64,000 nt of DNA from Azotosporobacter soli (GTDB lineage: Bacteria > Bacillota > Negativicutes > SG130): contig NZ_JAUAOA010000020.1 of the NCBI RefSeq assembly GCF_030542965.1, positions 1 to 64,000 of the forward strand. Direction: 5' to 3'. The translations under genes were made by a program, and so were the position numbers. Positions 16,422 to 51,676 of this stretch are shown one piece after another. The stretch's first letter is position 1. Each line of letters opens with the position of its first letter. The notes beneath the pieces were generated by a model. It saw only the letters and a list, made by a program, of their open reading frames with translations. It was not told the origin of the DNA and ran no database searches.

Positions 16422-16670
16422 ATGGTGGGAGAACAAATTTCGCTGCAAGCACGCATCGGAATCGTGTACGGTCTATATCATTTCAGCACAGAACTGGCCG
16501 ATGGATTCGTCCGTTGGCTGCACAGCATCGAGCATCCGTATGGGCGTTGCCTTTGCTTTGCTCCCGGCAGCTGTGAATTCAGCGCATTATGGCTGGAACT
16601 GGCGGAACAGGACCCTGAAGAATTCCTTGGTCTGCAGACGCGTTATCATGAACTTTTATTGCACTCATAA
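16422..16670 (+). CDS. Short protein resembling part of a phage-type VgrG-related/endolysin domain
   Basis: The 82-residue product reads VYGLYHFS...GFVRWL...FAPGSCEFSALWLELAEQDPEEFLGLQTRY. This recalls the SYGKYQF...FAPGSAAFDAAW...DPEGF...Q pattern in phage-tail peptidoglycan-acting domains annotated as VgrG-related. It would cover only the middle of that domain, and the upstream glutamate-bearing part is not visible, so it is probably a remnant or a derived small protein. A strong GGGAGGTG site precedes ATG 16422; a longer TTG start at 16350 is possible. No other phage gene is nearby. Assignment from memory of the motif only. Confidence 0.5.
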   Translation: MVGEQISLQARIGIVYGLYHFSTELADGFVRWLHSIEHPYGRCLCFAPGSCEFSALWLELAEQDPEEFLGLQTRYHELLLHS

Positions 16671-16705: not shown

Positions 16706-16836
16706 CGAGACTGAAACGAAAGCAAGCGGGACGTTTTTTACACGAAGAGTCGAAGACGGGAAGGTTGGAAGAGCTTTTAAATTCTTCCGACCTTCTCACC
16801 GGGCCGATACGATCGGGCCGCTTTGATTCTTCGTGT
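16706..16836 (+). repeat. Structured dispersed repeat, copy 1
   Basis: The core (16740-16836) is bounded by inverted ACACGAAGA/TCTTCGTGT ends and contains two further hairpins, one built on GGAAGA/TCTTCC and one on GGCCGAT/ATCGGGCC. Together they could fold as a three-way or cloverleaf structure. A conserved flank (CGAGACTG, then AAACGAAAGCAAGCGGGA) precedes it. An inverted copy lies at 51537-51676. Confidence 0.8.
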
Positions 16837-16942
16837 TTTCATGTTCTCCAAGCGTTCGATTCGTTCCTGTTAGCGCACGCTACTTTCTCTATCAAATCGA
16901 GCTGCAGCGAGAAAAAACAAACGTAGTTTTTTGAATATTCAG

Positions 16943-16971
16943 TTGAAGTTTAGAGAGAAATCGGTTATAAT
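16943..16971 (+). promoter_or_regulatory. Strong promoter of a putative non-coding RNA
   Basis: TTGAAG (16943-16948) and a perfect TATAAT (16966-16971) are spaced 17 bp apart. The predicted start is about 16978. No convincing gene follows before the terminator at 17347. Confidence 0.7.
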
Positions 16972-16977
16972 AAAGAC

Positions 16978-17347
16978 AAGCACAGAAGGAATGAAAAAGA
17001 AGAAATTCATCGCAGAATGCGCAGAAAGAGGTGATTCCATCGACAGAGAATAACGACGCCGAACAATCCCAATGGATGAGGAGTTGGTTATGCTGGGAAA
17101 ACCGAACCATGGGATCACAATTGAATAGCTAAGAGATCACAGTGTGTCGAACGACACACACTGAACAGCGCAATGTATCGTTGCGAGACAGAGTCTACCT
17201 GTATTGTTTCAGCTGTAGGCTCGAGTGAAGGTTTTTATCAACGGTTGGAGTGGCTTGACCCGTAAGAGGTTATAAGTTTCAGATCGTTGATCCAAGTTAG
17301 CAAGTAAGAACCGCCGGATGACTGGCTTAGTCACCCGGCGGTTTTTT
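16978..17347 (+). ncRNA. Putative ~370-nt structured RNA of unknown class
   Basis: A consensus promoter, about 330 nt without a credible gene, and a strong terminator define a transcription unit. Several helices are visible: CCC-ATGG with CCATGGG near 17066-17115, AGTGTGTCG/CGACACACT near 17140-17160, GAGTCTAC/GTAGGCTC near 17190-17222, and ATCAACG/CGTTGAT near 17238-17290. It is not tmRNA (no tRNA-like ends), not RNase P RNA (no GAGGAAAGTCC), and does not show the 6S or SRP signatures. Tiny frames exist (18 codons from 16992) but sit inside these helices. The next plus-strand gene is far away, so it is not a leader. Confidence 0.6.
17309..17347 (+). terminator. Terminator of the putative RNA
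   Basis: CCGCCGG and TGACT arms pair with AGTCA and CCGGCGG and are followed by six T residues. Confidence 0.9.
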
Positions 17348-17397
17348 GCATGCGCAGCAACCGCTCTTTCAGAAGAAGGCGGTCATGTTTAAAGGGT

Positions 17398-17442
17398 AAA
17401 AAAAACAAGCCTATCATAATAAGGGAAGAAGATAGGCTTGTT
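17398..17442 (-). terminator. Terminator of the 25-residue peptide gene
   Basis: On the minus strand AACAAGCCTATC pairs with GATAGGCTTGTT, followed by a run of eight T residues. Confidence 0.85.
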
Positions 17443-17504: not shown

Positions 17505-17582
17505 TTAGATGGCTTGCGTGACCGCTAAGGCAATAACAAAACAAAACATCAGCGCATAGGCCTTGAATTCTATTTTTTGCAT
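17505..17582 (-). CDS. Small hydrophobic membrane peptide (25 residues)
   Basis: This short frame begins MQKIEFKAYALMF and continues as one hydrophobic segment (CFVIALAVTQAI), enough for a single membrane helix. It has an excellent AGAAAGGAGG ribosome site eight bases before the ATG and its own terminator downstream. I do not recognise the family. Possible roles include a membrane-acting toxin or a small regulator of a membrane complex; the neighbouring lrgAB genes make a holin-like role tempting but unproven. Confidence 0.6.
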   Translation of the reverse strand: MQKIEFKAYALMFCFVIALAVTQAI

Positions 17583-51476: not shown

Positions 51477-51536
51477 TGCTTTCGGCCTACTAACCGGACT
51501 CAAACTCTCGACAATTGAAAAAAATAGAATGCGCTA

Positions 51537-51676
51537 ACACGAAGAAGCGAAGTGGGCCGATCGTATCGGCCCGTCGGGAAGAAAGGAAGAAAAATTTAAA
51601 AACTCTTCCTGCATTCCTTTCTTCGCATCTTCGTGTAAAAAACATCCCGCTTGCTTTCGTTTTGTCGTCAGTCTCG
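51537..51676 (-). repeat. Structured dispersed repeat, copy 2 (inverted)
   Basis: The core (51537-51636) has the same ACACGAAGA/TCTTCGTGT ends and inner GGGCCGAT/ATCGGCCC and GGAAGA-type stems as copy 1, in the opposite orientation, and the same flank (AAACGAAAGCAAGCGGGA, then CGAGACTG) read on the minus strand. The loops differ while the stems are kept. Confidence 0.8.

Follow-up and report, generated by a model that had tools for sequence, protein, structure and literature searches.

A predicted free-standing noncoding RNA of about 370 nucleotides, bracketed by its own promoter and intrinsic terminator, in Azotosporobacter soli

Large structured RNA classes are normally widespread, and OLE, ROOL, GOLLD and raiA are each defined by a structure that is conserved across many species. 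All four are large free-standing noncoding RNAs of Bacillota, with GOLLD often exceeding 800 nt and raiA measuring 205 nt (PMC12286853), while OLE is about 600 nt long (PMC9723947). The predicted RNA described here shares with them that it is free-standing, large, noncoding and found in Bacillota. Unlike these classes with their conserved, covarying folds, it differs in size and has no homologue in the genomes that we searched, and, in contrast to them, it does not lie near phage or tRNA islands. The resemblance to the large RNAs of anaerobic Bacillota that the first-pass annotation had drawn was therefore not upheld, since no homologue was found and the fold without its terminator is only weakly better than that of shuffled sequences.

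RNase P RNA and tmRNA are similar in size to our candidate and, together with 6S RNA, have the same promoter-terminator layout. Bona fide copies of all of them are located elsewhere in the genome, namely RNase P (C22:27445-27800), tmRNA (C2:129812-130159) and two 6S RNAs (C5:25250-25429 and C9:22271-22449). With the lack of an Rfam match, this led us to reject these identities, as the first-pass annotation had already done. The Rfam comparison that it had proposed places the RNA in no known family: no match overlaps it at gathering score, and permissive settings yielded only unrelated, sub-threshold matches at chance level (E of 0.45 or worse). CsrB-type sponge RNAs are likewise about 370 nt long with several hairpins, and they carry about three times as many GGA motifs; our candidate, unlike them, holds approximately 6 by hand count, against a random expectation of 5.8 in 370 nt. 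Trans-encoded bacterial sRNAs resemble it in being intergenic, in having their own promoter, a Rho-independent terminator and no open reading frame (ORF), and in their narrow phylogenetic range; most are shorter than this predicted RNA.

The window, that is, the whole 64,000-nt stretch of DNA that was analysed, belongs to contig C20 of a 3.78-Mb genome in 39 contigs. To the left of the RNA region lie a GDSL-lipase gene and an 82-amino-acid ORF, and to the right lie lrgB and lrgA, both convergent. As no co-directional gene is found 3' of the RNA, a role as a leader is unlikely. The features of the region are as follows.

16714-16886, plus strand: copy of an interspersed three-way-junction repeat, separate from the RNA (genome matches; alignment and consensus fold)
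16943-16971, plus strand: sigma-A/sigma-70-type promoter, TTGAAG (16943-16948), 17-nt spacer, TATAAT (16966-16971)
16978-17347, plus strand: predicted noncoding transcript of ~370 nt
17025-17036, plus strand: AAAGAGGTGATT, a stretch similar to the complement of the 3' end of 16S rRNA (sequence; comparison with class genes L022 and L024)
17031-17118, plus strand: predicted domain 1, with a 10-bp closing helix GUGAUUCCAU (17031-17040)/AUGGGAUCAC (17109-17118)
17128-17301, plus strand: predicted domain 2, with a weak closing helix GCUAA/UUAGC, hairpins at 17142-17159, 17169-17185 and 17191-17222, and a long hairpin at 17237-17291
17306-17346, plus strand: intrinsic terminator, a long G+C-rich hairpin followed by a U run

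The two small flanking ORFs offer observations of their own. The 82-amino-acid ORF (16422-16670, plus strand) has three paralogues in the genome, on C9, C7 and C32; some of its homologues within the class occupy a longer open frame of ~200 amino acids, and it resembles PF21277 (VgrG3-like C-terminal) weakly, at a score below the cut-off. The RNA is absent beside the paralogues of this gene that were inspected in the genome. On the minus strand, a 25-amino-acid hydrophobic ORF (MQKIEFKAYALMFCFVIALAVTQAI, 17505-17582) has an AAGGAGG ribosome site, a GATAAC-GTTATC inverted repeat upstream and, near 17404-17442, a terminator; it is reminiscent of small membrane peptides or type I toxin peptides and matches no family.

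The promoter, which is preceded by A/T-rich tracts, agrees with the consensus at 10 of 12 positions, and the RNA would start near 16978, 6 to 7 nt past the -10 box. In the terminator, AAGAACCGCCGGATGACT...AGTCACCCGGCGGTTTTTT, the 18-nt arms are 89% complementary and the pair probability is near 1; a simple scanner overlooked it because of an internal mismatch in the stem. Promoter and strong terminator thus stand as the first-pass annotation had described them. Its span of 16943-17347 needs trimming: an RNA of ~370 nt is retained, and positions 16943-16977 are promoter rather than RNA.

How much such a bracket means in this genome was gauged by a rule that requires a promoter of at least 10/12, a terminator with a T run and a stem of 8 bp or more, of which 5 or more pairs are G-C, an intergenic position, and a promoter-terminator distance of 100 to 700 nt. 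Applied to 463 kb of this genome, the rule yields 10 units. Half of these overlap an Rfam match (RNase P, a tRNA pair, a SAM riboswitch, a c-di-GMP-II riboswitch and an L20 leader), two have the look of leaders on visual inspection, one of the T-box kind and one of the yybP type, and one contains a tRNA 3' half, which leaves two units without an explanation, the RNA at 16978-17347 and L067:13227-13521. Nine units fall wholly within real intergenic segments, compared to none in 25 dinucleotide-shuffled sets. Since shuffling chiefly tests whether the terminators are real, the recovery of known RNAs is the stronger evidence. In this genome, most units recovered by this simple promoter-plus-terminator rule are hence genuine RNA genes or leaders, and as the rule returns mainly known RNAs and finds none in shuffled sequence, a standalone noncoding transcript at our locus is likely.

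Three of the other loci merit mention in their own right. The second unexplained unit, L067:13227-13521 (minus strand, C8), is ~295 nt long and contains no recognised gene or RNA family. At L070:9690-9740 (C11), a lone tRNA 3' half that looks like tRNA-Gly (CCC), with a CCA end, sits inside a promoter-terminator unit; ARAGORN detects no whole tRNA there, and the half is possibly a remnant of an integration site. The leader at L069:13152-13546 (minus strand, C10) has a T-box-like core, GGGTGGTACCG, and a terminator, and scores below the Rfam gathering threshold, so that it is possibly a divergent T-box.

We propose, with a probability of roughly 0.6, that the locus is a lineage-restricted, free-standing noncoding RNA gene whose product would be untranslated and most likely trans-acting. 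The transcription unit and its lack of coding capacity are supported: computationally, the RNA is intergenic, has its own promoter and intrinsic terminator, and contains no ORF beyond chance. In this model, transcription by RNA polymerase carrying the housekeeping sigma factor would initiate near 16978 and end at the hairpin-U terminator at 17347, producing an untranslated RNA of ~370 nt. This RNA may then act in trans as a regulator, by pairing with mRNAs or by binding a protein. Antisense pairing to 306 translation-initiation regions was in no case better than that of shuffled RNAs, and pairing to the neighboring 25-amino-acid ORF, lrgA and lrgB was not above that of shuffled RNAs either, which weighs against the proposal. 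The match to the start of the 82-amino-acid gene was borderline, with 2 of 60 shuffles as good, and an unrestricted duplex computation returned full-length pairing and was uninformative.

Our searches for homologues covered genomes that are related to the source at class level only, none being from the same order. By blastn, no homologue of the RNA was found in 40 relatives, in 380 genomes of the class (102 genera), or in a sample of 398 genomes of the phylum; the sub-threshold matches that we inspected were ribosome-binding sites or coding sequence and were rejected. Plasmids and phages gave no homologue, and viral contigs gave two 21- to 22-mers and no homologue. Single-sequence covariance models of domain 1 (R1, 100 relatives) and domain 2 (R2, the 380 class genomes) found no match. 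Scans of GTDB for syntenic relatives returned none with the neighboring GDSL protein and, with LrgB, only Anaerospora hongkongensis (53% identity), which lacks the RNA. Gene content and this Anaerospora match are what suggest Negativicutes as the class. The absence of homologues leaves no sign of purifying selection and so counts against the reading as a noncoding RNA gene; it is in part an effect of sampling, because no same-order genome was in the searched set.

With respect to structure, the long-range helices of the first-pass annotation are indeed predicted, several of them at high pair probability, while their significance is limited, at z of -1.55 to -2.8 without the terminator. In the single-sequence prediction, the closing helix of domain 1 has a pair probability of 0.77 to 1.0; that of domain 2 reaches only 0.3 to 0.43, with main helices at 0.66 to 1.0, including a 10-bp helix in the long hairpin (17237-17246/17282-17291). 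The full RNA with its terminator has a fold z of -4.03. This weakens to -1.55 with a larger shuffle set, or -2.8 with a smaller one, when the terminator is left out; domain 2 scores -2.46 and the core, 17026-17308, scores -2.27. The significance of the fold derives largely from the terminator. In the same test and genome, RNase P reaches -2.6 and 6S reaches -2.5, while tmRNA (+1.3) and a T-box (+1.6) are positive, and scores of -2 to -5.7 also turn up among ordinary intergenic segments. With known RNAs at positive z and some unrelated intergenic segments below -5, stability neither proves nor excludes function.

It is unlikely that the transcript is a short mRNA or dual-function RNA encoding a tiny peptide, either 12 codons (MLGKPNHGITIE, 17090-17128) or 33 codons from the GTG at 17031, with the rest as untranslated region. 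The 12-codon frame is the sole ORF with a fair Shine-Dalgarno site, an AGGAG six bases ahead of the ATG at 17090, and the stretch at 17025-17036 is a good match to the anti-16S tail; against this, an equal or better combination of ORF and ribosome site arises in 145 of 400 shuffles (36%), codon scores are about zero or negative (orf3, -6), and no start codon but TCG comes after the strong ribosome-site-like stretch. The 33-codon and a 20-codon ORF have no family match, and the 12-residue peptide is too short to scan. Of the small ORFs that were scanned, none matched NCBIfam, and six-frame fragments of 16860-17400 gave no convincing Pfam match (best E of 0.0064, below cut-off); the earlier statement that the region holds no credible gene is thus borne out. 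The same stretch would be explained if a small gene had decayed here and left its promoter, terminator and ribosome site (17025-17036) behind, a reading that we hold to be quite unlikely. No start codon follows AAAGAGGTGATT, as TCG stands where the class genes L022 and L024 carry TTG, and AAAGAGGTGATTCCA (17025-17039) is close to the form of the ribosome site in those genes; AAAGAGGTGATTCCATCGACAGA differs by one base from AAAGAGGTGATTCCATTGACAGA of L022 over the compared stretch. The similarity is confined to ~25 nt around the ribosome site, however, and the six-frame fragments contain no convincing family. With TCG after it, the stretch may be either a decayed start or a chance match.

We consider it improbable that the RNA represents a large structured RNA, ribozyme or scaffold, of a new class. 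Long helices with high pair probability argue for it, as do a core z of about -2.3 and a z comparable to those of RNase P and 6S, but the value without the terminator is only -1.55 in the larger shuffle set, values as strong as -2 to -5.7 occur in ordinary intergenic segments, no homologue was detected in 380 class genomes (blastn, R2) or 100 relatives (R1), and large structured classes are usually widespread. It is also unlikely that a large structured class exists that is restricted to an undersampled Negativicutes-like lineage, with this RNA as its first sampled member and the homologues still unsequenced. It is too early to label the RNA a new structured-RNA class. It is very improbable that the RNA and the convergent 25-amino-acid ORF (17505-17582) form a type I toxin-antitoxin-like pair in which the RNA is the antitoxin or antisense partner: the position fits, as does a hydrophobic ORF that is short and comes with a ribosome site and a terminator, but the predicted transcripts do not overlap, their terminators lying at 17347 and ~17396, and their complementarity is below shuffled expectation, being matched or surpassed by 58 of 60 shuffles. 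The free-standing noncoding RNA gene is therefore the reading that we prefer. If transcribed, it adds one more such gene, in a lineage without a close relative among the genomes searched; as an orphan, it does not so far allow its structure, job or mechanism to be inferred.

Upstream of the promoter, the repeat copy at 16714-16886 belongs to a family with ~41 matches in the genome, each about 125 to 170 nt, including a further copy in the window (51534-51662, minus strand) and others at loci L075-L104. We considered whether the RNA might be part of this repeat and rejected it: the repeat ends at ~16886, before the promoter, and the 41 matches occur without the RNA. The copy beside the RNA also lacks duplicated flanks, which argues that the element does not include the RNA. 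The repeat folds into a three-way junction with a closing helix, ACACGAAGAG/CTTCTTCGTGT, and two hairpins, in which 38 pairs are maintained over 29 copies, five of them with changes on both sides. At least 13 of these 29 copies have near-identical terminator-like hairpins of ~20 to 32 nt on both flanks, scored as duplicates where they exceed the highest mismatched left-right pair. This arrangement suggests that terminators may have been the insertion sites of the repeat, the hairpin being duplicated in the process, and this terminator-flanked family may prove more informative than the RNA itself. Among the weak matches to the repeat within the class is a palindrome of the CGCGAAGATGCGAAG type in L106, which is possibly a different element.
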